Notes under the pieces: model-generated
Database searches by the model: none
Told to the model about the DNA's origin: nothing
The model's input: the letters and a program-made list of their open reading frames with translations, nothing else
Shown here: positions 43,339-63,994 of the stretch, in pieces
Position numbering within the stretch: the first letter of the stretch is position 1
Layout of the letters: every line of letters begins with the position of its first letter
Assembly (NCBI GenBank): GCA_040754315.1
Contig: JBFMCS010000052.1
Coordinates: 1 to 64,000, forward strand
DNA from: Bacillota bacterium
GTDB lineage: Bacteria > Bacillota > Sulfobacillia > DUSP01 > JBFMCS01
Length of the DNA: 64,000 nucleotides
Reading direction: 5' to 3'
Program-made: the position numbers and the translations under genes

Positions 43339-43400
43339 TGGCAAGAACCCCCAAAATCCCTGGGCAATAGCGGGTGACATCATGAGAAGGCTGCTAGGTT

Positions 43401-43430: not shown

Positions 43431-43443
43431 TGGCTACCAGGGA

Positions 43444-44895: not shown

Positions 44896-44910
44896 CATGC
44901 TATCCTCCCC

Positions 44911-45543
44911 TTAGCCCAGCAAGCCCTTGGCCAGGTCGGTGGCGGTCACGGCATCCGGGGCGTAGCCATCAGCGCCGATCTCCGTGGCGAAGTCCTGGGT
45001 TACCGGGGCGCCGCCGATCATGACCTTGACACTGTCTCTGAGGTTTGCCTCCTTGAGCGCGTCGATGACATCCTTCATAACAAGCATGGTCGTGGTCAGG
45101 AGCGCGGACATCCCCACGATCTGAGGGGAGTGCTGCTTCACGGCATTCACGAAGGTCTCCGCCGAAACGTCCACCCCCAGGTTCACCACGTTCAGGCCCT
45201 TGGACTCAAGGAGCATGGCCACGAGGTTCTTCCCGATGTCGTGGAGGTCCCCCTTGACCGTCCCGATGACCACCGTCCCGGTTCCTGCCCTGCTAGCGGA
45301 GTCCAGGTGAGGCTTGACCAGGTCAAGGCCCATGTTCATGGCCTTGGCCGCCATCAGGACCTCAGGCACGAACATGTCGCACCTTTTGAACCTCTCACCC
45401 ACCACGTTCATGCCTGCCATGAGACCCTGATCCACGATGTCCAGGGGCTTGGCACCCCCATCCAGGGCCTTCCTTACCAGTTCCTGCGACTTGGCGGGAT
45501 CCCCCGCGATTACCGCTGACGCGATCTCCTCGAAAAACGCCAT
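44911..45543 (-). CDS. Corrinoid methyl-carrier protein (copy 1)
   Basis: 210 residues: helical cap then B12 domain with GDLHDIGKNLVAM (His ligand), SALLTTTMLV and MIGGAPVTQDFA. It belongs to the MttC/MtgC family that accepts the methyl group from the MttB-type enzymes. Start ATG 45543, with GGAGGAGG upstream. Nearly identical, about 99% over the whole gene, to the copy at 55789-56421 but placed between paralogs 2 and 1. Confidence 0.94.
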   Translation of the reverse strand: MAFFEEIASAVIAGDPAKSQELVRKALDGGAKPLDIVDQGLMAGMNVVGERFKRCDMFVPEVLMAAKAMNMGLDLVKPHLDSASRAGTGTVVIGTVKGDLHDIGKNLVAMLLESKGLNVVNLGVDVSAETFVNAVKQHSPQIVGMSALLTTTMLVMKDVIDALKEANLRDSVKVMIGGAPVTQDFATEIGADGYAPDAVTATDLAKGLLG

Positions 45544-45565
45544 CTCAAAGATCCTCCTCCTTCCG

Positions 45566-47043: not shown

Positions 47044-48453
47044 TCAGAGAGCGTTATGATCAACCGGTGCCTGCGTCATTTCCCTGAAGAAGGCCTCAAC
47101 CTGGCTGTCCAGGGGAGGCGGGGAGTACGCGGAGAGCCTTGACTGCCAGGCCTCTCGGGCCTTGTCCTTCACGTCCTTGGAGCCTGCCATCCTCCACACA
47201 TCGTAGTTGCCCCGGGTAAACAGCCCCGGTCTCCACATCTCCCTGAAGTGTCTCAACGTGTGCTCCGTTGTGAGGAAGTGGGAACCGGGACCGTTCTGGA
47301 CGGTAAGGTCCACCGCCAGTGCCTCTTCATCGAAGGACGGGGGCTTGGCCAGGAACTTGAGCATGGATACAAACTCCTCGTCGAGCATGAATTTCTCGTA
47401 GGACATAGTCATGAAGCTCTCCAGGATACCGCAGGCATGGAGCACGAAATTCACACCGCTCAACACGGATATCATCATAGCCATGGCCGATTCGGCGCCC
47501 CCCTGGGCGTCAGGGAGCATAGAATCGGTGACGGACCCCCCTGTCCTGCTAGGCAGGCGGTAGTAACGGGCCATCTGCACCGTGGCCGCAGCCATTGCGG
47601 ATGCCTCCGGCGCCCCCATGCTCAGGCTGCCATAACGCATATCGGCCACGGAGGACACGGAGCCGTATACCACCGGGCAGCCGGGCCTCAAGGCCTGGGT
47701 AGCGCAGACCCCCGCGAGAACCTCGGCGTTCTGGAGGGCCAGGGTGCCCGCTATGGAACAGGGGGCGGTAGCGCCGGCCATAGCCAGGGACGCGATGATG
47801 AGCGCCTCCCCCTCCCGGGCGTACTCCACCAGGGCGCCCAGCATGTTGGGGTCGTACGCCAGGGGCGTGTTCACATTCACAAGACCTATGAGACAGGGGC
47901 TATCGCCAGCCCCCAGGGCCGCCCGGGCCATGGTGATGGCGTCCCTGGCCTCCCTTTGCCCCTTGGTTATCCCGATGAGGGGCTTGCCGGACCCCCGTAT
48001 GGCCGAGGCCATCATGGCCACATGCCTTTGGGGGGCCGGCACATCGGAGGGCTCCACAAGGACCCCTCCGTTCACATCCAGCACTGGGCTGGAGGCTACA
48101 AGACGCACGAAGTTTTCATAGTCCTCCAGAAGGGCCTTCCGCCGGCCCCCCGTCTCTGACCTCACGAAGGGCGCCCCGTACCCCGGGCCTAGGTACGTGC
48201 CATCGCCCACAGTGACACTCTTTCCGGGATCCCTTGCCCTGAGGAGAAACCGGGTTGGGGCACTCTCCAGGAGGGAACTCACCAATCGCCAGTCAAGGTA
48301 GACCCGTTCGCCATCGACCCTGGCGCCGGCAGCCGCCAGGCCCTCCCTCACCTGTGGGTCGTGAAAGAGCACCCCTGCGGTCTGGAGTATCTCCATGGAG
48401 GCAGCATGTATCGCGTTGAGGTCCTCATCCTTGAGGTACTGGTAGAAACCCAA
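47044..48453 (-). CDS. Divergent MttB-family methyltransferase (paralog 3)
   Basis: About 469 residues. The fold signature is kept (LKDEDLNAIHAASMEILQTA, AGATAPCSIAGTLALQNAEV, GPGSHFLTTEHTLRHFREMW), but the usual STAGCTDSK block is GGSVTDSMLPDAQGG and the SEP..P..H motif is replaced by VNVNTPLAYDPN. The substrate pocket therefore probably differs. The start is TTG 48453, chosen because GGGGAGGGGA lies 5 nt upstream and homology begins with GFYQYLKDED. First gene of the operon with paralogs 2 and 1; copy B of the direct-repeat operator is about 95 bp upstream. Confidence 0.82.
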   Translation of the reverse strand: MGFYQYLKDEDLNAIHAASMEILQTAGVLFHDPQVREGLAAAGARVDGERVYLDWRLVSSLLESAPTRFLLRARDPGKSVTVGDGTYLGPGYGAPFVRSETGGRRKALLEDYENFVRLVASSPVLDVNGGVLVEPSDVPAPQRHVAMMASAIRGSGKPLIGITKGQREARDAITMARAALGAGDSPCLIGLVNVNTPLAYDPNMLGALVEYAREGEALIIASLAMAGATAPCSIAGTLALQNAEVLAGVCATQALRPGCPVVYGSVSSVADMRYGSLSMGAPEASAMAAATVQMARYYRLPSRTGGSVTDSMLPDAQGGAESAMAMMISVLSGVNFVLHACGILESFMTMSYEKFMLDEEFVSMLKFLAKPPSFDEEALAVDLTVQNGPGSHFLTTEHTLRHFREMWRPGLFTRGNYDVWRMAGSKDVKDKAREAWQSRLSAYSPPPLDSQVEAFFREMTQAPVDHNAL

Positions 48454-48545
48454 GGCATTCCCCTCCCCTGCCGTGCCGAGCCCATACTGGCAATGTGGGC
48501 CTCTCTGTGCCCGAGCCATTGGTTTCTATGGCGAACTGGGTGTCC

Positions 48546-48655: not shown

Positions 48656-49363
48656 CTATACCAGGCCCAGGTATGCCTTTTGCACGTGGTCGTTGACCAA
48701 AAGATCCCTGCTGGAGCCCTCCAGTGTCACCCTTCCCTGCTCCAAGACATAGGCCCTGTTGGTAATGTGGAGCGTGGTGTTGACGTTCTGCTCCACCAGG
48801 AAAATGGTAGCCCCCTCTTTGCTCAGCCTCTGAAGGGCCTCAAAAACAGTCACCACCAGCTTGGGTGCCAGTCCCAGGGAGGGTTCATCCACCAGCAGGA
48901 TCTTGGGACTAGCCATGAGCCCCCGGGCGATGGCCAGCATTTTGCGTTCACCACCGCTGAGGGTGCCAGCCATCTGGTTTCTCCTCTCCGCAAGCCTTGG
49001 GAACATCTCCAAGATAGCCTCCAGGGACTCGGCGGACTTCTTCCTGTCATTGACGACGAAGGCACCAAGGAGGAGGTTCTCCCTCACCGACATCCCTGTG
49101 AAGAGGTTCATATCCTCGGGTATAAAGCTCATGCCCATCCTTGCCACCTCATGGGTGGGAAGACCCCCGATTTCCTTGCCCAGGAACTTGATGCTGCCGC
49201 TCATGGGTCGCAACAGCCCGGCAATGCTTCTGAGGCTGGTGGTCTTGCCCGCGCCGTTGGGCCCCACCAAGGCGACAAACTCGCCCTCCTCCACCTCCAT
49301 GGACACATCCCACAGGACCTGGACTTGACCGTAGCCAGAACCCAAGTTTTGCACCTTCAGCAA
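48656..49363 (-). CDS. livF: Branched-chain amino acid-type ABC transporter ATPase
   Basis: 235 residues, the LivF-type ATPase. Seen: Walker A GPNGAGKTTSLRSIAG, signature TLSGGERKMLAIARGL, Walker B ILLVDEPSLGLAP, and the switch His region IFLVEQNVNTTL. It powers import with LivG and the LivHM channel. In this island the substrate may be a betaine rather than leucine (inference). Confidence 0.92.
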   Translation of the reverse strand: MLKVQNLGSGYGQVQVLWDVSMEVEEGEFVALVGPNGAGKTTSLRSIAGLLRPMSGSIKFLGKEIGGLPTHEVARMGMSFIPEDMNLFTGMSVRENLLLGAFVVNDRKKSAESLEAILEMFPRLAERRNQMAGTLSGGERKMLAIARGLMASPKILLVDEPSLGLAPKLVVTVFEALQRLSKEGATIFLVEQNVNTTLHITNRAYVLEQGRVTLEGSSRDLLVNDHVQKAYLGLV

Positions 49364-49392
49364 ACGTGTCCCCTCCCCTCCGACCTGGGCCC

Positions 49393-50127
49393 CTAGAGGA
49401 TGTAGGTCTCGCCGAGGTAGGCCTCGGCTACTTTCTTGTTCTTCACTATCTCATCCGGGGGCCCCTCCGCGATCTTCTCACCGTAGTGCAAGACGGCTAT
49501 CTGGTCGCAGATCTCCATGATGACCCTCATGACATGTTCTATCGTCATGATGGTGATGCCCTGATCGCGGATCCTCCTGATGGTACAGGTGAAGTCCACT
49601 AGTTCCGTCGGCGTGAGCCCGGCCGCCAGTTCATCCAGCAATAGCATCCTGGGCTCACTGGCAAGCGCCCTCGCGAGGTCCAGGCGTTTGAGCTGGGCGG
49701 TGTTAAGATGCTTCGCCACCGTGTCTACGGGCATGGGGAACTCCACGAATTCCAGCACTTCCCTGGCTTTCTTTGCAGGATTCCCGCGGTGTCCCAATCC
49801 CCCGAAGATGGCAGGGACCATCACGTTCTCCAGCACCGTCATGTCCTTGAAGGCCCTTACTATCTGAAAGGTCCTGGCTATACCCTTGTGACACACCTGT
49901 TCAGGCGACAGGACCGTTATGTCCTCTCCCTGGAAGTACACCTTGCCGCCCTCCGGGCGGTACACCCCCGCGATGACGTTGAGCAGCGTGGTCTTGCCCG
50001 CTCCGTTGGGACCTATGAGGCCGAAGATCGTGCCCTCCTCAACCTGGATCGACACATTGTTAACGGCCACCAGTCCCCCGAACCTCTTCACCACCGATTC
50101 CGTCCTGAGGATCATCTGCCACACCAC
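49393..50127 (-). CDS. livG: Branched-chain amino acid-type ABC transporter ATPase
   Basis: 244 residues, LivG type. Walker A is GPNGAGKTTLLNVIAGVYRP, then GIARTFQIVRAFKDMTVLEN (typical LivG Q-loop region) and LLLDELAAGLTPTEL. The signature is NTAQLKRLDLARAL, in which the usual LSGGQ is replaced by LNTAQL, a weak spot to note. It sits 29 nt before livF and 63 nt after the binding-protein gene. Confidence 0.9.
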   Translation of the reverse strand: MVWQMILRTESVVKRFGGLVAVNNVSIQVEEGTIFGLIGPNGAGKTTLLNVIAGVYRPEGGKVYFQGEDITVLSPEQVCHKGIARTFQIVRAFKDMTVLENVMVPAIFGGLGHRGNPAKKAREVLEFVEFPMPVDTVAKHLNTAQLKRLDLARALASEPRMLLLDELAAGLTPTELVDFTCTIRRIRDQGITIMTIEHVMRVIMEICDQIAVLHYGEKIAEGPPDEIVKNKKVAEAYLGETYIL

Positions 50128-50190
50128 CCAGCGTTCAAGTTGGTAAAGAGGGTGGCGGGAAGGGGTTTCCCGCCACCCGCGCCGCTGCCG

Positions 50191-51477
50191 CTACTGCATG
50201 TAAGGCGGTATCTCGATGTCCGCTTCCTTCCACTCATCAGGCCAGATCACCACGGGCTCTCCGCCGAAGTACTGGAGCACCGGGAAGATGAAGTAGCCCT
50301 TCCCTACCACCGGGTCAGGTATTGACTCCGGCGTGAACTTGTACTCCTCCATGATTATGCCATCGGTGAAGGACATGGTGCCCGCCTTGATGTTATCCAT
50401 GGCGAACTTGTGTATGTTCTCGCTGTTTAGTTCCCCATACTCCGCCAGGGTGTCCTGGAGGATCTTGATGAAGAACCGGGAGGAGTCATAGCTGAGTCCT
50501 CCGGCGGAGGGACTCGGCTTGATGCCCCACTTGGACTCGAAGGTCTCAGCGAACTCCTTGGCCTCCGGCGTGGTGAAGCCAGGGATCTGGTCCAGAACAT
50601 AGTCTGACATCTCGCCGCTGAGCTCGTACCACTCACCGATCCAGCCAAGGCCATCGGCGATGACCAGGGCGTTGAGGTTCACCTCACGACCCTGCTTCAC
50701 GAAGGCCGCGAAGGCCGGGGCGGAAGTGGCGGTGCTGGCCACGATCTCAACCCCCAGATCCCTAAACCGGGTGAGGAGCGGGTAGAACTCGGTCTCCCCG
50801 ATGGGGAAGTACTCCTCGGTCACCACTGTCCACCCGATGTTCTCCAGGTCTTTCCTTATGGCGCCCCCGAAGCTGCGGCCCCAGTCGGTGTCTTCACCGC
50901 AGACCGCCGCCTTCTTGTTCTTGGGAGTCCACTTCCCGGTGTCAACGATTTCCTCCAGCGCTGTCGCGTAGGCCACCGTGAGCTTGGCAGGGCTTGGCCA
51001 GGACTTCAGCCAGTAACTGTACTTCTCAGGATCGCTGGCGTACTTCTCATTGACCACCTCGGTCGCACCGTACCCGAAGAAGTGAGGCACCTTGTGCTTG
51101 GCGGTCACCTCCATGCACGCCACCGCCACGGAACTGTGCCAGTTCAGCACGCCTGCCTGGATGCCGTGGCGAAGGATGGCCTCCTCGTAGGCCCGGGTAG
51201 CCTTCTCAGGGTCTGACTGGGAATCGATCCATACCAGCTCAATCTTGTAGTCCCCCACCTTGTAGTCGATCTCTTCGAAGGCCATCTGCGCGGAGCCCTT
51301 GAACTCATCACCGGTACGCGCCGCCGGGCCCGTGAAGGGACCCATGACACCTACCCTCAGCACCTTTTCTGGTGGAGTCTCACCCGAAGGAGCGCCGCCC
51401 CCGCACCCTGATAGGGCCAGGGCTACGATCAAAAGAAGGGAGAGCACCCTAACGAGTTTCTTCGTGGATCCTTCCAT
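50191..51477 (-). CDS. ABC transporter substrate-binding lipoprotein (Leu/Ile/Val-type)
   Basis: About 428 residues. A lipoprotein signal peptide ends at the lipobox LALSGC near residue 25, so the mature protein is anchored outside the membrane. The periplasmic-binding fold follows: LRVGVMGPFTGPAARTGDEF, then VLNWHSSVAVACMEVTAKHK and TSAPAFAAFVKQGREV. Start ATG 51477 is set by GGAGAGGG upstream and places the signal peptide correctly. The ligand is unknown; a betaine-like compound would suit the context. Confidence 0.9.
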   Translation of the reverse strand: MEGSTKKLVRVLSLLLIVALALSGCGGGAPSGETPPEKVLRVGVMGPFTGPAARTGDEFKGSAQMAFEEIDYKVGDYKIELVWIDSQSDPEKATRAYEEAILRHGIQAGVLNWHSSVAVACMEVTAKHKVPHFFGYGATEVVNEKYASDPEKYSYWLKSWPSPAKLTVAYATALEEIVDTGKWTPKNKKAAVCGEDTDWGRSFGGAIRKDLENIGWTVVTEEYFPIGETEFYPLLTRFRDLGVEIVASTATSAPAFAAFVKQGREVNLNALVIADGLGWIGEWYELSGEMSDYVLDQIPGFTTPEAKEFAETFESKWGIKPSPSAGGLSYDSSRFFIKILQDTLAEYGELNSENIHKFAMDNIKAGTMSFTDGIIMEEYKFTPESIPDPVVGKGYFIFPVLQYFGGEPVVIWPDEWKEADIEIPPYMQ

Positions 51478-51531
51478 TTTCGTGACCCTCTCCTTTCTCG
51501 CTCTAGCGGTTTTGAATGCCATTGCCGGGGC

Positions 51532-52707
51532 CTAGATCTCCGGGCACCCCCTCCTTTCCCTGAGACACCTGGCCAGTATGAAAAGGGCCGGAACCATTAC
51601 CAGAGCATTCACATAGTAGGTCACGCCCGGGGAGAGACTCTGGGCCACCAGGCCACCCGTAGCCGGGCCCACGATCATTCCCACGCCCACCATGGTCTCG
51701 AATACCCCCGTGGCCGCCCCCCGGCGATGGGCCGGGACACAGCGGGATATCAGGGCTATGCAGGCCGGGAATACGCTGCCCAGGCCCACGCCCAGGGCGA
51801 AGGCAGACGCTATCATCGCCATGCCATGGGTCAGGGTCCCAACAAGCACTGAGGCCACAACGGCTATCCCCAGGGCGAACATGAGCACGGGCACGGAGCC
51901 GTACCTGTCCGACATCATCCCGGCCGTGGTGAAGGCTACCACACGGCCAAACCAGAAGGTTGCCATCAACACGCCTACCATGGCCTCGGTACCCAGGATG
52001 CCCAAGGCATACAGGGGCAAAAGGACCATGGTGGCATGCATTGCGAAACTGTAGAGAACTGCCACGATGTAGGGGACAAGGGCCATAAGACCGCGGGGAG
52101 CCTCCGTCCCCTGCCGAGCGCTGGCCTGGGCCTGCTCGTCATGGGTCTGCCTGGGTATCCGCACTAAGGCATAGAACATCACTGTTGCCAGGAGGGACAA
52201 GGCCAGGGCCGCCCTGAAGGCAAAGCCATGCCCCAGGCCGGCTGATATCAGACCTGCCAGAATACTGCCTCCCACAAAGCCTGATCCATAGACAGTACTG
52301 ATGAACCCCATGAGCCTCCCAGATCCCTTCTCCGTGGCCATGTGAGTGGTCAATGCCTCAAGGGAGCACCACCAGGTCGCCCAGCCAATCCCCTCGAGGA
52401 CCCTCGCGGCCCCGAGGTGCGGTATGGTGGACGAGGCGGAGTATCCCAGGTAGGAAGCAAGGGTGAACGCCATGCCTGCCAGCATGATGTTCTTGGTGCC
52501 CAGGCGGTCCGACATCAACCCGGAGGGAATAGCGGACGCCAGGTAGGCAATGCCGTAGAAGAGCCCCAGCATTCCCACATCAAGGTGGCTCCCTCCCACT
52601 CTACCTGCGAAAAGGGGGACCACGGTGGCGATTATGCCTGTTCCCAGGCTGAACAGCCCCACAACAACAATGAGGTATACCCGTGACCCCTTACTTGCCT
52701 TGTTCAT
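51532..52707 (-). CDS. MFS transporter inside the ABC importer operon
   Basis: 391 residues with about 12 hydrophobic segments. The loop motifs GLMSDRLGTKNIML (between helices 2 and 3) and GMMSDRYGSVPVL (between 8 and 9) mark the major facilitator fold. Its start overlaps the livM stop by 17 nt, and the binding-protein gene follows, so it is built into the liv operon. It may export the demethylated product or give a second import route; this is inference. Confidence 0.88.
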   Translation of the reverse strand: MNKASKGSRVYLIVVVGLFSLGTGIIATVVPLFAGRVGGSHLDVGMLGLFYGIAYLASAIPSGLMSDRLGTKNIMLAGMAFTLASYLGYSASSTIPHLGAARVLEGIGWATWWCSLEALTTHMATEKGSGRLMGFISTVYGSGFVGGSILAGLISAGLGHGFAFRAALALSLLATVMFYALVRIPRQTHDEQAQASARQGTEAPRGLMALVPYIVAVLYSFAMHATMVLLPLYALGILGTEAMVGVLMATFWFGRVVAFTTAGMMSDRYGSVPVLMFALGIAVVASVLVGTLTHGMAMIASAFALGVGLGSVFPACIALISRCVPAHRRGAATGVFETMVGVGMIVGPATGGLVAQSLSPGVTYYVNALVMVPALFILARCLRERRGCPEI

Positions 52708-53707
52708 GACCTAACCCCAGGTCCACCGTCTTTGAACGCCAGCGATTGGCCCTTCGCAGCAGGCCCTCGTATGCGGCATTGAACCCGCCGGGGTAGAAAA
52801 CCATGATGAGGATGAGCATGACACCGTAAATGACCAGGCGGAGCTCCATCAGGTGCTTCAGGTACTCAAACGCCGGGATCAAGACAAAGCCTGCCAGGAG
52901 TCCCCCCCAGATGCTGCCCCTGCCCCCCACATAGGCCAGGGTAAGCACCTGGACCGTGTGCCGTGTGTGCATGACGTCAGGGGTGAGAATGCCCATGAAG
53001 TGCGCGTAGTAGGCCCCCAGCGCCCCGGCGATGGCGCACGACAGGGTGAAGTTGATCACCTTGTACTTGGTTGGGTTCACCCCTGAGGCCTGGGCGGCCT
53101 CCAAATCCTGTCCTATGGCCTTAAAGGCGAGGCCTACCCTGGACCGCGTCACTGTCCTCAGCAGGATCCAGGTGAGAAGGGTGAAAGGCAGTAGTGTATA
53201 GTAGTACGGTAGCTTGTGGGCGGTATCAAAGAATAGTGGCACGTTGAGCCCCAGCTGGCCCCTGGTGAGGTCCACTAGTTGCGTTGCCAGCGCCATGAGG
53301 TTGAGTCCCACAAACCAAGACATGACCGCGGCGAATATGCCTCTGAGGCGCAGTGTCAGCACTCCGGTAAAGAACCCCACGATGGCCGCGGATAAGGTTG
53401 CGAAGATGATGCCCAGCCACGGGGACACCCCCAGCCTGACGGCCAAGAGTGCAGAGGTGTAGGCTCCCAAGCCCCAGAAGGCTGCATATCCAAAGTTCAC
53501 TATCCCAATGAAGCCCGTGGTGAAGTCGAATCCCATGGCCAGTGTGCCGAAGAGAAGGCTCGAGATCATGAGGTGGAGCAGGAACTCGCTCTTAATCACC
53601 TGGGGCGCCAGCACCAGGAGAATGCCGATGAGCGCTACATGCGGCGAAAGCCCGATGCTTGCCATTCTGGACAACAGGGTAGCCCTCTTGAAGTCCTGTT
53701 CCGTCAC
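52691..53707 (-). CDS. livM: Branched-chain amino acid-type ABC permease
   Basis: 338 residues, LivM type, eight to nine membrane segments. Seen: FDFTTGFIGIVNFGYAAFWG near the N-terminus, LTLRLRGIFAAVMSWFVGLN, and the EAA-like loop SRVGLAFKAIGQDLEAAQAS with GVNPTKYK. Four nucleotides separate it from livH. Confidence 0.9.
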   Translation of the reverse strand: MTEQDFKRATLLSRMASIGLSPHVALIGILLVLAPQVIKSEFLLHLMISSLLFGTLAMGFDFTTGFIGIVNFGYAAFWGLGAYTSALLAVRLGVSPWLGIIFATLSAAIVGFFTGVLTLRLRGIFAAVMSWFVGLNLMALATQLVDLTRGQLGLNVPLFFDTAHKLPYYYTLLPFTLLTWILLRTVTRSRVGLAFKAIGQDLEAAQASGVNPTKYKVINFTLSCAIAGALGAYYAHFMGILTPDVMHTRHTVQVLTLAYVGGRGSIWGGLLAGFVLIPAFEYLKHLMELRLVIYGVMLILIMVFYPGGFNAAYEGLLRRANRWRSKTVDLGLGHEQGK

Positions 53708-53711
53708 CTTT

Positions 53712-54590
53712 TCATACCCCCTTGGCCGCCGTTCCGAACAGCCCAGCGGGCTTTAACAGCAGGATCAGTATGATTATTGAGAGGCTGAAGATGTCTTGCC
53801 ATCCAGCACCCAGAGTGTAGTAGGAAACGGTCTCAAGGAACCCCACTACCAGACCTCCCAGAATGCTGGCCCCAATGTTGCCCAGGCCCACAAGGATAAC
53901 GACGTACCAGGACTTGTACAGGGGCATTAGTCCCATGGTAGGGTAGGCAGGGTTAATGGAGAGGAGAAGAGCCCCGGCGACACCTGCAAGCATACTAGCC
54001 AGGGCGAAGGTGAGGGTCTGGATCTTGTTCAGGTCTATGCCCACCAGCATGGCACCGGTTTCATCCTGCGACACCGCCCGGATGGACCGCCCTGTGGTGG
54101 TCTTGCTCAGAAAGAGCCAGAAGATGGCGATCATTAGGGCCGCTACCAGGAAGCCCGCTGCCCTGTCCATGGGTATGCTCATGCCCGACACGAAGGAAAC
54201 GCTGCCGGGCCAGTACTGCCTCACGCCACGGAACTTGGTGCCCCAGACCGATTGGGCCAGGTTCTGCATGGCCACGGAGAGGCCAACCGTCAGGAGGAAG
54301 GTGTTCATGATCCACTGCTCTTTTGACCTCCTGCGAAGCGGGTAGAACACACTCTTCTCCGTGAAGCCGCCCGCAGCGAAGCCTGCTATCCCCGCGATGA
54401 TGATGGCGGCTATGGGGTTCAGACCCGCCGCGACCGAGAAGAAAGCAACGTAGGCCCCGAGCATGTAGAACTCTCCGTGGGCGAAGTTGGGGATATTCAT
54501 GACGCCAAACACCAGTGACAAACCCACGGCCATGAGGGCATACAGGCCCCCGCGGAGTATTGAGGTGACAGTAAGGTCCCACCATTCCAT
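53712..54590 (-). CDS. livH: Branched-chain amino acid-type ABC permease
   Basis: 292 residues, LivH type, seven to eight membrane segments. Seen: LMAVGLSLVFGVMNIPNFAH at the N-terminus, the loop TGRSIRAVSQDETGAMLVGI, and LVGLGNIGASILGGLVVGFL. First permease of the importer operon, 72 nt after the iron-sulfur protein gene. Confidence 0.92.
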   Translation of the reverse strand: MEWWDLTVTSILRGGLYALMAVGLSLVFGVMNIPNFAHGEFYMLGAYVAFFSVAAGLNPIAAIIIAGIAGFAAGGFTEKSVFYPLRRRSKEQWIMNTFLLTVGLSVAMQNLAQSVWGTKFRGVRQYWPGSVSFVSGMSIPMDRAAGFLVAALMIAIFWLFLSKTTTGRSIRAVSQDETGAMLVGIDLNKIQTLTFALASMLAGVAGALLLSINPAYPTMGLMPLYKSWYVVILVGLGNIGASILGGLVVGFLETVSYYTLGAGWQDIFSLSIIILILLLKPAGLFGTAAKGV

Positions 54591-54662: not shown

Positions 54663-55418
54663 TCAGGGACGGGTAACTGCCTCCCAGCAACTCCTGACAC
54701 AGATCCCACATACCTCGTCATCTAGGCCAAGTGCATCGATCCGCTGGCGGCACCTCTCCCGGTACACGTCCTGGTCCTCCTCACCCACGTACTTGTCCAG
54801 GATGGGGCAGGCGCTTAGACATGCGGTGCAGTCACCACACTCCCCTGCCTGGCGCGACTCCACCTCCATCATCCCCGGCAGGTACAGGGTGGCCATGCGA
54901 AAGGCAGCCCCCCACTGGGGCGTGACGATTAGCCGGTGCCGCCCCCTCCAGCCGAGGCCGGCAGCCTCTGCCACGCTCCGGTGGGACGCGGAGTGAGGGA
55001 AGTAGTCCCGCACATGAGAAGCCTGGCTTACGAAACCCTCCAGTGTAGCGCCTTCATGGATGCCCCCAAATCTCCCGGCAAGGGCTTTTGCCACCCGGTC
55101 TAGGGCGTTGTTCAGGAGGGTGTAGGCGTGGGCGTACTCATTCCAGCGGCTGCCCTCGGGGGGCCGGGCCACCCAGTGGCCGGGAATGGCCTCGATCTCA
55201 CCAGGGTGGTAGGCCATGGCCAGGGACACTGCCACTATGTCCTTCCACTTGACCCCCAGGACTTGAGTCTTGTCTCTCAGGTAGGCCTCCTGAGGGGGTA
55301 TCCACCTCACTCCGGCCAGGGATACAGCAGCCAGTGACCCCTGGCGCCCGTAGTCGTGGCAGAATGTATCGAATTCCTTCTTAATGTCAGTCCATACCGG
55401 CGCTTGGCTCTTCCCCAT
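54663..55418 (-). CDS. 4Fe-4S protein related to epoxyqueuosine reductase
   Basis: 251 residues. The C-terminal third carries CGDCTACLSACPILDKY and VCGICVRSCWEA, a 2x[4Fe-4S] arrangement as in QueG and reductive-dehalogenase-like proteins. The N-terminal part (SLAMAYHPGEIEAI, HVRDYFPHSASHRSVAEAAG, GWRGRHRLIVTPQWGAAFR) resembles the QueG cobalamin-binding body, but the protein is shorter than QueG. Such proteins may reactivate corrinoids (inference). Upstream of the liv operon and downstream of operator copy C. Confidence 0.75.
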   Translation of the reverse strand: MGKSQAPVWTDIKKEFDTFCHDYGRQGSLAAVSLAGVRWIPPQEAYLRDKTQVLGVKWKDIVAVSLAMAYHPGEIEAIPGHWVARPPEGSRWNEYAHAYTLLNNALDRVAKALAGRFGGIHEGATLEGFVSQASHVRDYFPHSASHRSVAEAAGLGWRGRHRLIVTPQWGAAFRMATLYLPGMMEVESRQAGECGDCTACLSACPILDKYVGEEDQDVYRERCRQRIDALGLDDEVCGICVRSCWEAVTRP

Positions 55419-55788: not shown

Positions 55789-56421
55789 TTAGCCCAGCAA
55801 GCCCTTGGCCAGGTCGGTGGCGGTCACGGCATCCGGGGCATAGCCGTCAGCGCCGATCTCCGTGGCGAAGTCCTGGGTTACCGGGGCGCCGCCGATCATG
55901 ACCTTGACACTGTCTCTGAGGTTGGCCTCCTTGAGCGCATCGATGACATCCTTCATAACAAGCATGGTCGTGGTCAGGAGCGCGGACATCCCCACGATCT
56001 GAGGGGAGTGCTGCTTCACGGCATTCACGAAGGTCTCCGCCGAAACGTCCACCCCCAGGTTCACCACGTTCAGGCCCTTGGACTCAAGGAGCATGGCCAC
56101 GAGGTTCTTCCCGATGTCGTGGAGGTCCCCCTTGACCGTCCCGATGACCACCGTCCCGGTTCCTGCCCTGCTAGCGGAGTCCAGGTGAGGCTTGACCAGG
56201 TCAAGGCCCATGTTCATGGCCTTGGCCGCCATCAGGACCTCAGGCACGAACATGTCGCACCTTTTGAACCTCTCACCCACCACGTTCATGCCTGCCATGA
56301 GACCCTGATCCACGATGTCCAGGGGCTTGGCACCCCCATCCAGGGCCTTCTTTACCAGTTCCTGCGACTTGGCGGGATCCCCCGCGATTACCGCTGACGC
56401 GATCTCCTCGAAAAACGCCAC
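55789..56421 (-). CDS. Corrinoid methyl-carrier protein (copy 2)
   Basis: 210 residues, differing from copy 1 only by Lys for Arg at residue 24. All B12-binding motifs are intact (GDLHDIGKNLV, SALLTTT, IGGAPVT). The start codon is GTG where copy 1 has ATG, with GGGGGAT upstream, so translation may be weaker. Last gene of the sigma-54 operon paralog 5 - racemase - paralog 4 - corrinoid. It presumably accepts methyl groups from those two enzymes and is interchangeable with copy 1. Confidence 0.94.
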   Translation of the reverse strand: MAFFEEIASAVIAGDPAKSQELVKKALDGGAKPLDIVDQGLMAGMNVVGERFKRCDMFVPEVLMAAKAMNMGLDLVKPHLDSASRAGTGTVVIGTVKGDLHDIGKNLVAMLLESKGLNVVNLGVDVSAETFVNAVKQHSPQIVGMSALLTTTMLVMKDVIDALKEANLRDSVKVMIGGAPVTQDFATEIGADGYAPDAVTATDLAKGLLG

Positions 56422-56495: not shown

Positions 56496-57929
56496 CTACC
56501 GTGCCCACCACTTCTTCTCCATCTGGTCCAGCCTCGACTGGACGCCCGCGGCCAAGGGCGCTGGCCTGTGGCTCTCCAAGATCTCACAGGCCTTCTCCCG
56601 CAGCACCTGATCCAGGGGCTTCATGCCCTCCATCTGAGCCAGCTGGTACCTGCTCCGGTCCAGGTGTTTGGTCCGGTGCAGTTCCCGGAAGTGCCTGAAG
56701 GTGTGTTCCTCCGCAACGAAGGTGCCCCCCGGCCCGACCCTGCCAATGATGTCCAGTGCCAAGGTTTCATCGGAGACCTCCACGCCCTTCATGAACTGCC
56801 GGATGTATCCCGCTAGTTCATCCATGAGAAGGTGCCCCTCAAAACTCAGGACCTCGGAGTGGTCCAGGAACCCTGTGTCATGGATGAGGTTGGATCCGCA
56901 CATCACTGAGGCCAGGGCTGAAATGCCGTATTCCATCCCTGCCTGTGCATCCAGGAACTTGGAGTCGCTGACCCCTGCAGTGCCGAACATGGGAAGGTCA
57001 TAGTAGTGGCTCATGTCGGTCAGGGCCGAACACAGGAGAGGCAGTTCCGGTGTGCCATAGGAGTAGATGGTGGTGAGCATGTCCATGGCCGAGGGTATCC
57101 CGCCGAAGACACTGGGGGCTCCTGGCTTCACCAGCTGCTGCATAACGATGCCGCTGACGCTCTCCGCGGTGCCTAGGGTGATTATGCCAGCGTAGGTCAC
57201 CGGCGCGGTGGCCCCGCCCATAGGCATCGGGGTATTCACAACAGGCAGGCCCCTCTCAACGGAGCGTAGCGCCACCTCCAACCCGTAGCCATGAACCAGG
57301 GGGGTGATGGGCTCCGTGTAGACAATGAGGAAGGGCCTCTCGGCCAAGGCATCCGCCCCGCCGCTGATGGCAACCAGCATCTCGTACACGTCCTCAAACA
57401 CATCCATCTCGTTGCAGCACATCAGGATGGGTTTAACGGTGTTGGACACTGTCTCCTTGAACTCTACCTGGGTGGCAATGAGGGATGGAACATCCCTGAC
57501 CTGCCCCAGGAGCATGATGAACTCCATGTTGGGAAGGTAGTCGTTCATCCGGGCGAACTCGGCCACATCCGCGCGGGTGCATGGGCGACGCTCACCCGTC
57601 CTGGGATCCAGGATCTGGGGGCAGCTGGCACAGCCTCCGAAGTGGCTCCGGCGTCCCCCCAGCTCGAGGGCCTCGTTGCCCAGGCGGTCCCACACCGTGA
57701 AGGACGATGGGGCCTTCTTCAAGGCCTCTTCCACCAGGCCCTTGGGTATCTTGACGATCTCCCCTTCAACGGTGGCCCCAGCCTTCCTGAGGATCTCCCG
57801 GCCCTCCGGGAGTTCAACCTTTACGCCAACGGTTTCCAGGACCTTGAGTGTGGCCCTGTGTATTCTCTCGCACTGTTCCTCGGAGAGCACCCTGAAAGAG
57901 GGCGAGTTCACCTTGCTGCCGTCGATCAT
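56496..57929 (-). CDS. MttB/MtgB-type methyltransferase (paralog 4)
   Basis: 477 residues. Family marks: SFRVLSEEQCERIHRATLKV, CPQILDPRTGERR, VYTEPITPLVHGYGLEVALR, MGGATAPVTYAGI, GTAGVSDSKFLDAQAGMEYG and GPGGTFVAEEHTFRHF. In the last motif the usual His of GGHF is replaced by Thr. No pyrrolysine-type stop. Clear GGAGGGAG ribosome site. It lies 34 nt after the racemase-family gene, so a proline-betaine-type substrate is plausible (inference). Confidence 0.9.
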   Translation of the reverse strand: MIDGSKVNSPSFRVLSEEQCERIHRATLKVLETVGVKVELPEGREILRKAGATVEGEIVKIPKGLVEEALKKAPSSFTVWDRLGNEALELGGRRSHFGGCASCPQILDPRTGERRPCTRADVAEFARMNDYLPNMEFIMLLGQVRDVPSLIATQVEFKETVSNTVKPILMCCNEMDVFEDVYEMLVAISGGADALAERPFLIVYTEPITPLVHGYGLEVALRSVERGLPVVNTPMPMGGATAPVTYAGIITLGTAESVSGIVMQQLVKPGAPSVFGGIPSAMDMLTTIYSYGTPELPLLCSALTDMSHYYDLPMFGTAGVSDSKFLDAQAGMEYGISALASVMCGSNLIHDTGFLDHSEVLSFEGHLLMDELAGYIRQFMKGVEVSDETLALDIIGRVGPGGTFVAEEHTFRHFRELHRTKHLDRSRYQLAQMEGMKPLDQVLREKACEILESHRPAPLAAGVQSRLDQMEKKWWAR

Positions 57930-57963
57930 TCGTTCTCCCTCCTGTTGCCTGGCTACATCCCCC

Positions 57964-58962
57964 TCACAGGCGAAAGCCCATCTTCAGCGGGTCATCGGGG
58001 TGCATTACCAGGTTGTTGAGGCCCGTGATATGGGCTCTAGCAGTGATAGTGGGCTGAACAGCATCGAATTCTCCTACCTTGGCCTGGCCAACAAGCCGCC
58101 CGGCAAAGAGCGTCCCCAGGATGCTCTCGTGGACGAACTCCTGGCCCAGTGGCAGCTTGCCCTTGGCATGAAGGGCTGCCATCTTTGCCGAGGTGCCGGT
58201 ACCGCAGGGTGACCGGTCCACCTGTCCCTCCCCGAATATCACCACGTTCCGGGCGTGAGCCCGGGGATTTGAGGGAGGCCCAGAGATCTCCACCAGGTCA
58301 ATGCTGCTGATGTGGGTCTGGACAGGGTGCCTGACGGGGAAGTCCTGGAGCTCCCGGAGTATCCTCATGCCGATCTGGACCAGTTCGCCGAGGTTCTCCA
58401 AGGAGATCTCACCTACCTGGTCCGAAGAGACTATCCCAAAGAAGTTGCCTCCGAAAGACACATCAACCTTCACATCGCCATGACCTGGCACGGGAACGCT
58501 GACATCGCCGGCAAAGAGGAATGAGGGAACGTTTGTGATGGTCACCGACTTCACCAGGTCGCCCTCCATCACTGCCTTGGCTCTGACAAGCCCTGCCGGC
58601 GTGTCCAGGACCACCTCTGGCTCGCCCTCCCTGGAGGCGACCAAGCCTGTTTCCAAGGCCGCGCTGGCCACGCCGATGCAGCCGTGCCCGCACATGTTCA
58701 GGAAACCGAAGGTGTCCATGAAGATCACACCCAGGTCAGCCTCCGGATGGGTAGGTTCCGTGAGGACCGCCCCGAACATATCGGCATGCCCCCTGGGCTC
58801 CCTCATAAGGAAGCCGCGGAGGTGGTCCAGGTTCTTCATGAGGTAGTCTCGTTTCTGGGCCATTGTGGCGCCGGGAAGGTAAGGAAACCCTCCGGTGACT
58901 ATCCGCGTGGGCTCACCCTCAGTGTGGGAATCCACAACGGTAATGAGCCTTTCAAAACGCAT
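57964..58962 (-). CDS. Proline racemase / 4-hydroxyproline epimerase family enzyme
   Basis: 332 residues. Both catalytic Cys are present: NMCGHGCIG near residue 90 and DRSPCGTGTSA near 255, so it is a racemase or epimerase rather than the Thr-containing 3-hydroxyproline dehydratase. Other marks: VVDSHTEGEPTRIVTGG at the N-terminus and HPEADLGVIFMDTFGFLNM. It acts on the alpha carbon of proline, hydroxyproline or an N-methyl derivative. Sandwiched between two methyltransferase genes, it suggests the operon demethylates proline betaine or hydroxyproline betaine and then racemises the product (inference). Confidence 0.9.
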   Translation of the reverse strand: MRFERLITVVDSHTEGEPTRIVTGGFPYLPGATMAQKRDYLMKNLDHLRGFLMREPRGHADMFGAVLTEPTHPEADLGVIFMDTFGFLNMCGHGCIGVASAALETGLVASREGEPEVVLDTPAGLVRAKAVMEGDLVKSVTITNVPSFLFAGDVSVPVPGHGDVKVDVSFGGNFFGIVSSDQVGEISLENLGELVQIGMRILRELQDFPVRHPVQTHISSIDLVEISGPPSNPRAHARNVVIFGEGQVDRSPCGTGTSAKMAALHAKGKLPLGQEFVHESILGTLFAGRLVGQAKVGEFDAVQPTITARAHITGLNNLVMHPDDPLKMGFRL

Positions 58963-58997
58963 GGCAATCTCTCCTTCCGCTTATCCGGACGATGGCG

Positions 58998-60446
58998 TCA
59001 GGCCCTGGCGTCAGCGGCATCCACTATGGCCCTGATATGCTTCAGCGTGCCAGCGGGCAAGGGTTCAACCCTGTGTCCCTCGAGAACCTCCGCCGCTCGT
59101 TCGTGCACCCTCTGGCCCAAGGTCTTCCCGCCCCCGGCCTTCCAGGCATCATAACGCTGGCGGGTAATGAGGTCAGAAAAGGTCAGTTCCTTGCGGAAAA
59201 ACCGTGTTGTGTGCTCCTCTTCCAGGAAGTGGCCACCAGGTCCCACCGACTGGGTGACGTTGACGGCCAGTGTATCGTCGTTAACCTCGATGCCCCTGAT
59301 GAACCGTTTCGCCATTGCAATGACCTCATTGCTGAGGACCATCATCTCCACGGACCCAGTAGACCCGTACTCGATGTAGCCCACATCGTGGATGAGGTTT
59401 CCCCCGCTGAGGGCGTTCACCAGGATGGAGAAGGTGGCCTCCACCGTAGCCTGCTCATCGAAGGCCGGAGAGTCACTGCACCCGGCAGTGCAGAACAGGG
59501 GGATCTTCGTGTACTGGGCCACATCGGCCAGTGCCGCCTGGAGCAGGTCGAACTCCACGGCACCGTAGGAGAAGAGGGTGGTTCTCATGTCCATCACGGT
59601 AAAAACGCCACCCAGTATGAAGGGCGCCCCCTCCCGGACCAGCTGGTGGAGCACCAACCCGCTCAGGCTCTCAGCCAACCCCGAAGCGAGGGTGCCCGCC
59701 AGCGTGGCCGGGGCGGTAGCCCCCGCCATGGGAGCCGGAGTGTACACTACCGGGATGCCAGCCTCGGCGGAGCGGATCAGCTTATCCACCGCTTCAAGGG
59801 GGTGCCTGAGAGGGGATATGGGTTCGGTGTACATGGCCAGGATCGGGCGTTCGGCCAAGGCCTGGGGGCCTCCAACCACAGCCTCAGCCATGGAGATTAT
59901 GTCGTTGTAGCCCTCCAGGTCATGGGCGGTCACCACCACGGGCTTCCCGGTGTTGAGGAGCATGGCCTCATACTGGTGCCTGTCAGAAGAGAGGGTCGGA
60001 ACGTCCTGGACCAGTCCGAGGGACATGCAAAAGTCCAGGTTCTTCAGGCCGTCCAAGGCCTTGGCCGCATCGGCAACATTCTTCTTGGTGGTACGGTTCC
60101 TCTGGCCCGTCCAGGGGTCCACGAAATTGGGACAATCAGAGCCGGTTCCGAAGTAGATCTTTGTGCCCTCCAGCTCCACGTCACCCTTGCCAGTCCGGCT
60201 GTTGTGGAGGGTCACCTTTGAAGGGGCCTGAGTCATTGCCCTCTCCACCATGGCCCGGGGGAATCTCACCCTGATGCCGTCAGCCTTGGCACCAGCCTTC
60301 CGGAGCATCTCCAGGGCAGGTTCGTGATGGAAATCCGCCCCCGTCTCCTCCAGCAGCCTGAGGCTGGCATCAAGGACCCTCTCGATATCGCTGTCTGCCA
60401 GGACCCTTAGCCTCATGGACCTGCACTGACTAGTCTCACACGACAC
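58998..60446 (-). CDS. MttB/MtgB-type methyltransferase (paralog 5)
   Basis: 482 residues. Family marks: MRLRVLADSDIERVLDASLR, YFGTGSDCPNFVDPWTGQRN, MYTEPISPLRHPLEAVDKLI, CTAGCSDSPAFDEQATVEAT and GPGGHFLEEEHTTRFF. Start GTG 60446 is set by GGGAGGG 7 nt upstream; the frame to 60500 would begin inside the leader. It resembles paralog 1 most (TGSDCPN, SPLRH). First gene of the sigma-54 operon; the -24/-12 element lies 78-93 bp upstream. Confidence 0.9.
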   Translation of the reverse strand: MSCETSQCRSMRLRVLADSDIERVLDASLRLLEETGADFHHEPALEMLRKAGAKADGIRVRFPRAMVERAMTQAPSKVTLHNSRTGKGDVELEGTKIYFGTGSDCPNFVDPWTGQRNRTTKKNVADAAKALDGLKNLDFCMSLGLVQDVPTLSSDRHQYEAMLLNTGKPVVVTAHDLEGYNDIISMAEAVVGGPQALAERPILAMYTEPISPLRHPLEAVDKLIRSAEAGIPVVYTPAPMAGATAPATLAGTLASGLAESLSGLVLHQLVREGAPFILGGVFTVMDMRTTLFSYGAVEFDLLQAALADVAQYTKIPLFCTAGCSDSPAFDEQATVEATFSILVNALSGGNLIHDVGYIEYGSTGSVEMMVLSNEVIAMAKRFIRGIEVNDDTLAVNVTQSVGPGGHFLEEEHTTRFFRKELTFSDLITRQRYDAWKAGGGKTLGQRVHERAAEVLEGHRVEPLPAGTLKHIRAIVDAADARA

Positions 60447-60523: not shown

Positions 60524-60539
60524 AGCAAGTTCCGTGCCA
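60524..60539 (-). promoter_or_regulatory. Sigma-54 (-24/-12) promoter of the racemase/methyltransferase operon
   Basis: Minus strand TGGCACGGAACTTGCT matches the consensus TGGCAC-N5-TTGC completely, with GG and GC ten bases apart. Transcription would start near 60513 and give a leader of about 66 nt. Confidence 0.9.
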
Positions 60540-60590: not shown

Positions 60591-60636
60591 GCAAATAATA
60601 TTTGCATAACTGGCGCAAGTGGTACTGGCAGCGCCA
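60591..60636. promoter_or_regulatory. Candidate activator-binding dyads upstream of the sigma-54 promoter
   Basis: GCAAATA-A-TATTTGC (60591-60605) is a perfect 7-bp-arm dyad. Just beyond it TGGCGC (60611-60616) pairs with GCGCCA (60631-60636). Both lie 50-100 bp upstream of the -24 element, where enhancer sites for bacterial sigma-54 activators are usual. They sit between the activator gene stop and its presumed target. Confidence 0.6.
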
Positions 60637-60650: not shown

Positions 60651-62405
60651 TCAGCCCTGCCGGAATTCTTCGAGCCTCAGCCCCATCTTCTTGAGCCGGT
60701 ACTGCAGGTTCTGGCGGCTGAGACCCAGGGACCGCGCCGCCCGGGATACATTGCCCTGGTGGGCACGGAGGGCCCGGTTCAGGAAGGCTCGCTCTGCGTC
60801 CTCCATGGCGACACGGAAGGTTTCGTGCTCAATGGGAGGCTTTGCCTCTTCCGCCGTGGCAGGGTGAAGGAAGTAGTAGGGGAGGTGCTTGACCTCGATG
60901 CATTCCTCTCCAGGGGCCACCATGTTCAGTGAACTCTCCACGCAGTGTTCAAGTTCCCGTACATTCCCTGGCCACGGGTGCTTAAGAAACAAAGCCATGA
61001 CCGCGGCCGAGGCAGACTTCACCTGCCGGCCAAACCTGCGGTTGTACTTTCTGATGAACCTCTCGGTGAGTTCTGGGATGTCCTCCAGGCGCCTTCTGAG
61101 AGGCGGCAAGCCAAGGTAGACCACACCCAGGCGGTAAAAGAGGTCCTGCCGGATGGTGCCCTTCTCCACCGCCTTCAGGGGATCCACGTTCATGCTGCTG
61201 ATTATCCTGGGGGTGACCCGCCTCTCCTTGGTGTCACCCACCCTCCTGATGGTACCCTCCTCGAGAACCCTTAGGAGCTTGCTCTGCAGGAATGGCTGCA
61301 TGGAGTTGATCTCGTCCAGGAAGATGGTTCCCCGTGAGGCCTCCTCGAAGAGGCCTCGCCTGTCCACGGCACCCGTGAAGGCCCCCTTGCTGGTACCAAA
61401 GAGGATCCCCTCCAGGAGTCCCTCGGGAATGGCCGCGCAGTTTATCGCCATGAAGGGCTCTCCGGTCCGGGGGCTGTTGCGGTGGATGCTCTGGGCGAAG
61501 AGTTCCTTACCGGTTCCCGTCTCCCCGTGGATGAGAATGGGGGAATCCGTCCCGGAAGCCTGCCGGGCTTCCCTTATGACCCGGAGAAAGGAGGGATCCT
61601 GCCCTGCTATGTCCTCAAAGCTATAGGTGGCCTCCAGTGAGCTCCCCTCGGCAACAGGCGTCGTCGAACCCTGTATCTTCATCTCCATCTCTCTCCACTT
61701 GTCCGAGAACCTCCGGGCCATGCTGTAGTCCTTTGTTATAGCCACGGCCCCCACCATGTTGCTGTCCTCGTACAAGGGCACGGCCGTGCATATTATGTTT
61801 ACCATCTTGCCGTACTTCGTCACATAGGTCTGGTGCTCATTTATAATGGGCTTCCCTGTTCTCATGGCCCTGACCATCAGGCTGGATTCCGGGGCCAGCC
61901 TGTATACCTCACTCACGTGGCGGTAGAGCGCATCGGAGCGGCGCATCTCGTCTATCTCCTCTTGGGAACGGTTCATGAAGATAAGCCGGCCGTCCCGGTC
62001 GACCACCTCAATTCCCTCGCTTATGGAGTTCAATATGTTCTCGTAGCTGTTCTTGGTGGTAACGGTGTTCCTCAGCTGGTCCTTAAGCAGTTCTACCTCT
62101 GTGTAGTCCCTGATGATGAGGGCGGTGGGACACCCCTGGCAGCCCCCGGCCAGAGACACCCGGCAGATCTCCAGGGTCCTCCCTCCTTGGGCATCCCTGA
62201 TCTCCCGGGTTATCCGTGAGCGGTCGCTGGGGAAGGTTAGGTGCGGGAGGGCCTCCTCAAGGCTGCGCCCCTCGATTGAGGCGGCACTGTTACCCAGGAG
62301 TTCCAGGGCGCTTGGGTTGTGGCCCCGGATGAAGCCCTCAGCATCCACTAGGACTACGCCTATGGGAAGTGCGTCGATGATCATCCCTTGGGTTGCTGGA
62401 TCCAT
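60651..62405 (-). CDS. Sigma-54-dependent transcriptional activator (PAS-PAS-AAA+-Fis)
   Basis: 584 residues. Two N-terminal PAS domains (about 5-105 and 115-225), the AAA+ domain with Walker A HGETGTGKE at about 293-301, the sigma-54 contact loop GAFTGA at 341-346, Walker B GTIFLDEI, and a C-terminal Fis-type helix-turn-helix (GNVSRAARSLGLSRQNLQYR). It remodels sigma-54 polymerase in response to a ligand sensed by the PAS region. Its gene lies between two sigma-54 promoters, one on each side, both driving methyltransferase genes. No receiver domain, so a phosphorelay is not involved. Confidence 0.95.
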   Translation of the reverse strand: MDPATQGMIIDALPIGVVLVDAEGFIRGHNPSALELLGNSAASIEGRSLEEALPHLTFPSDRSRITREIRDAQGGRTLEICRVSLAGGCQGCPTALIIRDYTEVELLKDQLRNTVTTKNSYENILNSISEGIEVVDRDGRLIFMNRSQEEIDEMRRSDALYRHVSEVYRLAPESSLMVRAMRTGKPIINEHQTYVTKYGKMVNIICTAVPLYEDSNMVGAVAITKDYSMARRFSDKWREMEMKIQGSTTPVAEGSSLEATYSFEDIAGQDPSFLRVIREARQASGTDSPILIHGETGTGKELFAQSIHRNSPRTGEPFMAINCAAIPEGLLEGILFGTSKGAFTGAVDRRGLFEEASRGTIFLDEINSMQPFLQSKLLRVLEEGTIRRVGDTKERRVTPRIISSMNVDPLKAVEKGTIRQDLFYRLGVVYLGLPPLRRRLEDIPELTERFIRKYNRRFGRQVKSASAAVMALFLKHPWPGNVRELEHCVESSLNMVAPGEECIEVKHLPYYFLHPATAEEAKPPIEHETFRVAMEDAERAFLNRALRAHQGNVSRAARSLGLSRQNLQYRLKKMGLRLEEFRQG

Positions 62406-62468: not shown

Positions 62469-62484
62469 TGGCATGGACCTTGCA
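62469..62484 (+). promoter_or_regulatory. Sigma-54 (-24/-12) promoter of methyltransferase paralog 6
   Basis: TGGCATGGACCTTGCA: TGGCAY-N5-TTGC with GG and GC ten bases apart, on the plus strand 58-73 bp before the gene. Divergent from the activator gene. Confidence 0.88.
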
Positions 62485-62542
62485 GAAACATCTGGCAAGG
62501 ACATCTTCCGGAGCGTGAAAACCGGGTGAAAGGAGAATGACC

Positions 62543-63994
62543 GTGAGGAGCAATTACGTAGCGAACGCCACCGCGCAGTTCCGGATCCTCTCCCAAGACC
62601 AGGTCGAGGAGATCCACGCGGGGACCATGGAGGTCTTGCAGAGGACGGGCGTTGAGGTGCACCACCCGGAGGCCCTAGACCTCCTGAAGAGGGCGGGTTG
62701 CCATGTGGACGGGCCCCGGGTCAGGATCCCCTCCTGGCTGGTGGAACGCTCCATCCGGTCGGCCCCGTCCCGGGTTGTGCTGTGCGGCCGTGACGGCAGC
62801 CGCAGGTTATTCCTGGAAAACCGCAACTTCCACTTCGGTCCAGGGGTCACCAACCCCTTCATATCTGATCCTGTCACAGGCGAAAGGCGCCTTGTCACCC
62901 ACGGGGATGTGGCCAACACTGCAAGACTGGTGGATTCCTTGCCAAACCTGGATTTCGTGATGTCCCTGGCAATGATAAGCGATGTGACCAAGGGACTCGC
63001 CGACGTCTACGAGGTCGAGGCCATGCTCTCCAATACCACCAAGCCAATAGTGAGCTGGGGCTTCGGGGTGGAAGGCTACCGGGACATCGTGGACATGTGC
63101 ATTGCCGTGGCCGGAGGACTGGAGGCACTCCAGAAGAACCCCTTCATCTGCCTCTACTCCGAACCCACCACACCCTTGCAGCACTCCTTCGAGGCCATGG
63201 GCAAGCTCCTCTTCATGGCTGAGCACAACCTCCCCTGCATATATACGCCTGCACCCATGGCGGGAGCCACTGCTCCGGCTACCCTCGCGGGGGTACTGGT
63301 GATGGGGAACGCCGAGTGCCTCACCGGTGTCGTGGTCAGCCAGTTGAAGCGGGAGGGCGCCCCCATCATAATGGGCGGGGTCCTGACCGTGATGGACATG
63401 CGATCCACCCTCTTCAGTTACGGGGCGCCAGAGATGCCCCTCCAGAGCGCAGCCATGGTCGATGTGGCCCACTACTACAAGATACCCTCTTTCAGCACGG
63501 CCGGCTGTACCGATGCCAAGACCTTAGATCTCCAGGCGGCGTCGGAGCTCACCTTCAGTGTCCTCTCCGCGGCCCTCAGCGGGGCCAACCTCATACATGA
63601 TGTGGGCTTCCTGGAGTATGGGTCCTCGGGCTCCTACGAGATGCTCCTTCTCGGAGACGAGGTGATAGGGATGGCCAAGCGCCTGGTGAGGGGGATCGAG
63701 GTTACCCGGGATACCATGGCCCTGGACATCATCGACGACGTGGGCCCCGCGGGCCACTTCCTCACGCAGGCCCATACCTTCCGCCATTTCCGGGACCAGC
63801 TCTGGACGCCGCGGTACTTCGACAGGAACCGCTACGACTTGTGGAAGGCGGAGGGCCAGATAGACATGGGGCAGCGATTGAGGGATGAGGCAAACAGGCT
63901 CATGAGGGAGCATTCGGTGGAGCCCCTGGACAAGAAGGTCGTGGAGGGGATCGAGAGGGTTCTCGCCAGGGCCGAAGCGCGGGTGCGCGGGTAG
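62543..63994 (+). CDS. MttB/MtgB-type methyltransferase (paralog 6)
   Basis: 483 residues. RSNYVANATAQFRILSQDQV at the start, HFGPGVTNPFISDPVTGERR, LYSEPTTPLQHSFEAMGKLL, MAGATAPATLAGVLVMGNAE, STAGCTDAKTLDLQAASELT and GPAGHFLTQAHTFRHF. Start GTG 62543 is preferred over ATG 62537: AAGGAG then has a 7-nt spacer and the N-terminus lines up with paralogs 1 and 2. No pyrrolysine-type stop. Closest to paralog 2. The gene ends 6 nt before the window edge, so operon partners may follow outside. Confidence 0.9.
   Translation: MRSNYVANATAQFRILSQDQVEEIHAGTMEVLQRTGVEVHHPEALDLLKRAGCHVDGPRVRIPSWLVERSIRSAPSRVVLCGRDGSRRLFLENRNFHFGPGVTNPFISDPVTGERRLVTHGDVANTARLVDSLPNLDFVMSLAMISDVTKGLADVYEVEAMLSNTTKPIVSWGFGVEGYRDIVDMCIAVAGGLEALQKNPFICLYSEPTTPLQHSFEAMGKLLFMAEHNLPCIYTPAPMAGATAPATLAGVLVMGNAECLTGVVVSQLKREGAPIIMGGVLTVMDMRSTLFSYGAPEMPLQSAAMVDVAHYYKIPSFSTAGCTDAKTLDLQAASELTFSVLSAALSGANLIHDVGFLEYGSSGSYEMLLLGDEVIGMAKRLVRGIEVTRDTMALDIIDDVGPAGHFLTQAHTFRHFRDQLWTPRYFDRNRYDLWKAEGQIDMGQRLRDEANRLMREHSVEPLDKKVVEGIERVLARAEARVRG

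Follow-up and report, generated by a model that had tools for sequence, protein, structure and literature searches.

What substrate is handled by an operon in which a gene of the proline racemase family stands between two genes for MttB-type methyltransferases? The question is raised by a 64,000-nucleotide stretch of a Bacillota genome (the window in what follows). To our knowledge a substrate is known for few MttB-family proteins, and most are without one. A racemase whose pocket can be read and which is tied to MttB genes by its operon narrows the guess to a few purchasable compounds. We favor the possibility, at a probability of roughly 0.58, that the operon would use a corrinoid protein to demethylate proline betaine (stachydrine), or a closely related compound with no hydroxyl group, and would racemize proline or possibly N-methylproline.

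Operon layout and sigma-54 control

The features concerned are the following.
58998-60446, minus strand: MttB_1 (PF06253, MTTB, 295 bits; alignment and tree), with Cys at the pyrrolysine position
57964-58962, minus strand: proline racemase, canonical pocket type (PF05544, Pro_racemase, 401 bits)
56496-57929, minus strand: MttB_2 (PF06253, MTTB, 302 bits; tree), with Val at the pyrrolysine position
55789-56421, minus strand: corrinoid protein, MtgC/MttC type (PF02310, PF02607 and TIGR02370 over cut-off)
60525-60539, minus strand: sigma-54 promoter element TGGCACGGAACTTGC (-24/-12), perfect match with 0 mismatches
55769-55742, minus strand: terminator hairpin and then a T run (CCTTTTT), read in the sequence; fold z = -2.8
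60591-60636, no strand: GCAAATA/TATTTGC and TGGCGC/GCGCCA, two inverted repeats 5' of the promoter
60651-62405, minus strand: sigma-54 activator, PAS-PAS-AAA+-Fis by domain search, adjoining the operon
62537-63994, plus strand: divergent MttB-family gene with its own one-mismatch sigma-54 site at 62469-62483
48659-54590, minus strand: LIV-type ABC transporter LivHMKGF, split by an MFS gene; its orthologues in three further genomes have MttB genes around them

The operon runs on the minus strand in the order MttB_1, racemase, MttB_2, corrinoid protein gene, with gaps of 35, 34 and 74 nt, and its MTTB, Pro_racemase and B12-binding Pfam matches are all far above cut-off. An earlier note on this DNA had described the gene order, the 34-35 nt gaps and the corrinoid gene, and the coordinates and Pfam bear it out; the terminator that it proposed is likewise present as a hairpin and T run 3' of the corrinoid gene, and is missing from the output of a simple terminator scan. 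By chance alone, the probability of one racemase gene lying no more than 50 nt from any of 26 MttB genes is about 0.001. MttB_1 starts with GTG at 60446, preceded by a GGGAGG ribosome site, and an in-frame ATG lies upstream at 60500.

The sigma-54 promoter that the note had placed before the operon proved to be a perfect -24/-12 element. Sites of this type at no more than one mismatch number 11 in the window against 5.2 expected, and 11 was reached by no shuffle. With an RpoN gene confirmed in the window at 10963-12333, the hallmarks of a sigma-54 operon (-24/-12 promoter, enhancer-binding activator and rpoN) are all present at the sequence level. The activator is distant from PrdR. The inverted repeats upstream of the promoter are possible activator sites; they are short, and a chance origin is conceivable.

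A proline-type pocket in the racemase

Both catalytic cysteines previously reported for the racemase were confirmed, in the motifs MCGH and DRSPCGTG. The protein is the sole full-length member of its superfamily in the genome and is 52% identical to AsProR, whose structure is solved. In TcPRAC numbering (PMC1964878) its pocket reads F102, L270, F290, H132, D296, C130 and C300. Proline racemases have Phe102, Leu or Cys270 and Phe290, and hydroxyproline epimerases have Val or Ser, His and a non-Phe residue at these positions (PMC1964878, PMC4364671); all of the diagnostic proline-racemase residues are present here and none of those of the epimerases. The curated NCBIfam proline racemase model (NF010576) is top-scoring among all the models listed for the protein, at 448 bits against a cut-off of 556, a shortfall that we count against our reading. 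Despite this score, the enzyme is, on all the pocket residues examined, a proline racemase. An identity as 4-hydroxyproline epimerase was rejected, given Leu rather than His at 270 and Phe rather than Ser or Val at 102. Of the original assignment to the proline racemase/hydroxyproline epimerase family, the proline racemase part stands and the Phe/Leu/Phe pocket speaks against the other.

These residues also make it improbable that the racemase is a hydroxyproline epimerase in an operon for hydroxyproline betaines (betonicine, turicine): R1, R2 and site 5 each match the proline type and there is no His at 270, although a Phe-bearing proline-type pocket, that of FaProR, can have some hydroxyproline activity (PMC4364671). 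Another cyclic amino-acid betaine, for example pipecolate betaine (homostachydrine), is very improbable as the substrate; any such compound would presumably fit the same architecture, but the pocket is identical to that of enzymes characterised on proline. As to the form of the ligand, His132 and Asp296 lie in motifs that bind the carboxylate or the ring nitrogen (PMC4364671), which would favour proline or N-methylproline over a quaternary betaine. That the enzyme racemizes the betaine itself appears unlikely because the residues holding the ring NH are retained.

No partner for Stickland fermentation

The racemase has the same pocket residues as PrdF/AsProR of Stickland fermenters, with 52-58% identity. 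PrdF/AsProR, however, feeds D-proline reductase, whereas the neighbours of the racemase in the window are MttB genes, and PrdA and PrdB gave no meaningful score in the searched genome. The racemase is therefore not feeding D-proline reductase and Stickland proline fermentation was ruled out; the one GrdB-family gene of the genome is of the sarcosine/glycine reductase kind. Proline dehydrogenase was not found in the genome either, so that family does not oxidise L-proline here. D-proline may feed an unrecognised dehydrogenase, one candidate being the SoxB-like gene at 34022-35299, which has only about 25% identity to D-amino-acid-dehydrogenase-like proteins from other clusters. That a racemase is present though the genome is without D-proline reductase counts against proline betaine as the substrate. 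The operon gives a proline racemase of an anaerobe a likely role that does not involve Stickland fermentation. Sarcosine-reductase-like GrdF/GrdG and component C genes were seen at L005:7333-11516 (G000:C51), and sarcosine for these could originate in glycine betaine demethylation.

The MttB proteins and glycine betaine

MttB_1 and MttB_2 score over cut-off for the MTTB domain and have no in-frame amber codon, which places both in the non-pyrrolysine MttB superfamily. In a tree of 47 MttB proteins, the clade of MttB_2 (96/97) holds the MttB that follows the LIV genes in genome G155 and the MttBs beside Bipolaricaulota racemases. MttB_1 pairs with 43444-44898 (95/92), which belongs to a choline/glycine-betaine-like cluster with a choline-dehydrogenase-type gene, and we count this kinship against proline betaine. 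The wider MttB_1 group (94/93) includes the MttBs of racemase loci L075, L076, L159-L161, L179 and L180; L079, with an MtgB-like MttB, is the exception. Neither group takes in the trimethylamine enzyme or the MtgB of Desulfitobacterium hafniense.

Although MttB_1 and MttB_2 share superfamily and predicted fold with D. hafniense MtgB, they do not belong with it. Of the residues proposed to bind glycine betaine in MtgB (Y94, N199, R309 and H345; PMC6855144), here read one column shifted from the printed alignment labels, they keep the His only; Y94, N199 and R309 are missing and the two proteins fall in other clades. All four residues are retained in 47044-48519, an MtgB-like MttB that clusters near MtgB. 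It is therefore a separate candidate enzyme for glycine betaine, and likely the one this genome uses. Glycine betaine as the sole substrate of the operon is disfavoured by the presence of this gene.

A broader scenario is that the MttBs act on a different quaternary amine (glycine betaine, carnitine or a choline product), with the racemase as a recently recruited passenger for some D-proline use. We consider this unlikely, if worth keeping in mind. It would account for the kinship of MttB_1 with 43444-44898 in the tree, and for a proline-type racemase adjoining MttB being found only here, but it is at odds with the following: (i) genes of the racemase superfamily are repeatedly linked to MttB in other lineages; (ii) D-proline reductase is missing from the genome; (iii) an MtgB-like gene is already available for glycine betaine and (iv) the racemase is translationally packed between both MttBs.

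The region 35308-47017 holds genes for an aldehyde ferredoxin oxidoreductase, an Fe-S protein, a choline-dehydrogenase-type Fe-ADH (above its NCBIfam cut-off), an amino acid permease and an MttB-corrinoid-MttB group; a similar set, of nearly the same genes, is clustered in G392 (L173). Two MttB genes, L015 (G000:C14:91677-93080) and L008 (G000:C53:29755-31170), have an in-frame TAG that aligns with the pyrrolysine of M. barkeri MttB and lie in its clade; from these, the source bacterium may use pyrrolysine. The MttB homologue L014 (G000:C4:63948-65423) has two in-frame TGA codons, and is either a broken gene or one with an unusual reading.

The adjacent transporter

LivHMKGF lies just downstream of the operon, beyond the terminator; in the interval before LivH, 54663-55418 encodes a distant QueG-like protein with no Pfam match. 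Orthologues of LivK (53-55% identity) occur in 3 of 398 genomes and are amid MttB genes in 3 of 3. The LIV blocks of G200 and G319 also include a corrinoid gene and a racemase of the Asp-270 type. In G155, an MttB comes next after the LIV genes, and behind it stands a hydroxyproline-degradation set consisting of an FAD protein, an Fe-S protein, a D-amino-acid-dehydrogenase-like protein and a dihydrodipicolinate-synthase-like protein. Three of these four are 52-58% identical to a set adjoining a hydroxyproline epimerase in G001, a genome of the same order as the source of the window, and hydroxyproline catabolism is marked by DAAO- and DHDPS-family genes (PMC4113996).

We regard the G155 arrangement as the strongest pointer toward proline-type betaines. 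Taken literally it points to hydroxyproline, whereas the racemase of the window is of the proline type. An orthologous transporter adjoining such a set would suit hydroxyproline betaines as the substrate of the operon, but in the window such a set was not seen; only two of its components have homologues there, and these are distant.

Racemase genes beside MttB genes in other genomes

Genes of the racemase superfamily and their neighbourhoods were surveyed across the phylum (398 genomes), across the class (154 genomes) and in the loci from a named-genome scan; many of the genomes are drafts, and the class search around G044 covered three genomes. Outside this genome, superfamily genes with three further pocket types accompany MttB genes, both in Bacillota and in Bipolaricaulota. 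An MttB gene was in the locus for 7 of 8 racemases of the Asp-270 type (9 of 10 including L179 and L180; 6 of 7 groups when counted by genus) and for both of the Arg-270/His-290 type (2/2, both Bipolaricaulota). The corresponding counts were 1/37 for the proline type, 0/20 for the hydroxyproline epimerase type and 0/19 for the remaining types, those that lack the Cys pair included; linkage outside the Asp-270 and Arg-270 classes is thus 1/76, the one being this window. Comparing the Asp and Arg classes with the rest gave a Fisher p of about 2e-10, in which independence is overstated as some loci are closely related. G088 provides an internal control, with MttB near its Asp-270 gene and none near its epimerase-type or dehydratase-type genes. 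The Asp-270 proteins show two residue patterns (YNCHDLDC and VACADFDC) in one clade (97 SH-aLRT).

A proline-type racemase adjoining MttB was found in this genome only, which we count against proline betaine; the 18 loci of the named-genome scan contain no such pair. Tentatively, and with more doubt than confidence, we suggest that corrinoid betaine catabolism has taken up superfamily enzymes on several occasions, that the MttB-linked Asp or Arg+His (270/290) classes would be enzymes, not described before, that racemize or epimerize N-methylated or quaternary amino acids themselves, and that the variant in the window would act on fully or partly demethylated proline. A literature search on racemases with corrinoid or MttB proteins found no relevant report, and the survey marks MttB-linked pocket classes described in no paper that we found.

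Loci of the Asp-270 class (L075, L076, L079, L083, L159, L160, L161, L179 and L180) combine the racemase with MttB and quaternary-amine transporters. Among the MttB-linked loci, transporters of the glycine-betaine/choline ABC type occur in L076, L079, L147, L150 and L160, BCCT transporters in L179 and L180, a sodium-solute symporter in L083 and LIV transporters in L159 and L161; those of L076, L079, L147, L150 and L180 are named from sequence alone. The Bipolaricaulota loci L147:2604-6654 and L150:4285-12013 consist of an OpuC-type ABC transporter, an Arg270/His290 racemase and two MttBs. An enolase-family gene in L160 was considered as a hydroxyproline betaine epimerase, a role that is not supported, as it gave only weak matches to sugar-acid dehydratases and mandelate racemases.

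A proposed pathway

If proline betaine is the substrate, the LIV-type transporter beside the operon would import it, and MttB_1 and MttB_2, by some division of labour, would transfer its N-methyl groups onto the corrinoid protein for onward passage to tetrahydrofolate. The racemase would interconvert the D and L forms of the demethylated product, proline or possibly N-methylproline. Racemization would serve both enantiomers or both demethylation steps, and an opposite enantiomer preference of MttB_1 and MttB_2 is one option. The adjacent sigma-54 activator would turn the operon on. The earlier note had suggested proline-betaine-type substrates, hydroxylated ones included; the canonical pocket, the recurrence of racemase-MttB linkage, the context of the LIV orthologues, the clade of MttB_2 and the separate MtgB-like gene argue for the proline betaine part, and the hydroxyproline part did not hold up.

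There is precedent for such a system in MtpB-MtqC-MtqA, the proline betaine methyltransferase system of Eubacterium limosum (Picking 2019, via PMC8604678). Compared by description, both have a non-pyrrolysine MttB-family enzyme and a corrinoid protein, with proline betaine the proposed substrate here. Unlike the window, the E. limosum corrinoid and MttB genes are in separate clusters, and PMC8604678 mentions no racemase for that system. The hydroxyproline betaine pathway (cited in PMC4113996) likewise has an enzyme of the proline racemase superfamily in the same catabolic route as demethylation, but that route is aerobic and its 4-hydroxyproline epimerase is of the His-270 type.

The corrinoid genes at 55789-56421 and 44911-45543 are 99% identical in DNA (627/633) and neither flank is similar, a pattern such as might be left after gene conversion confined to coding sequence.
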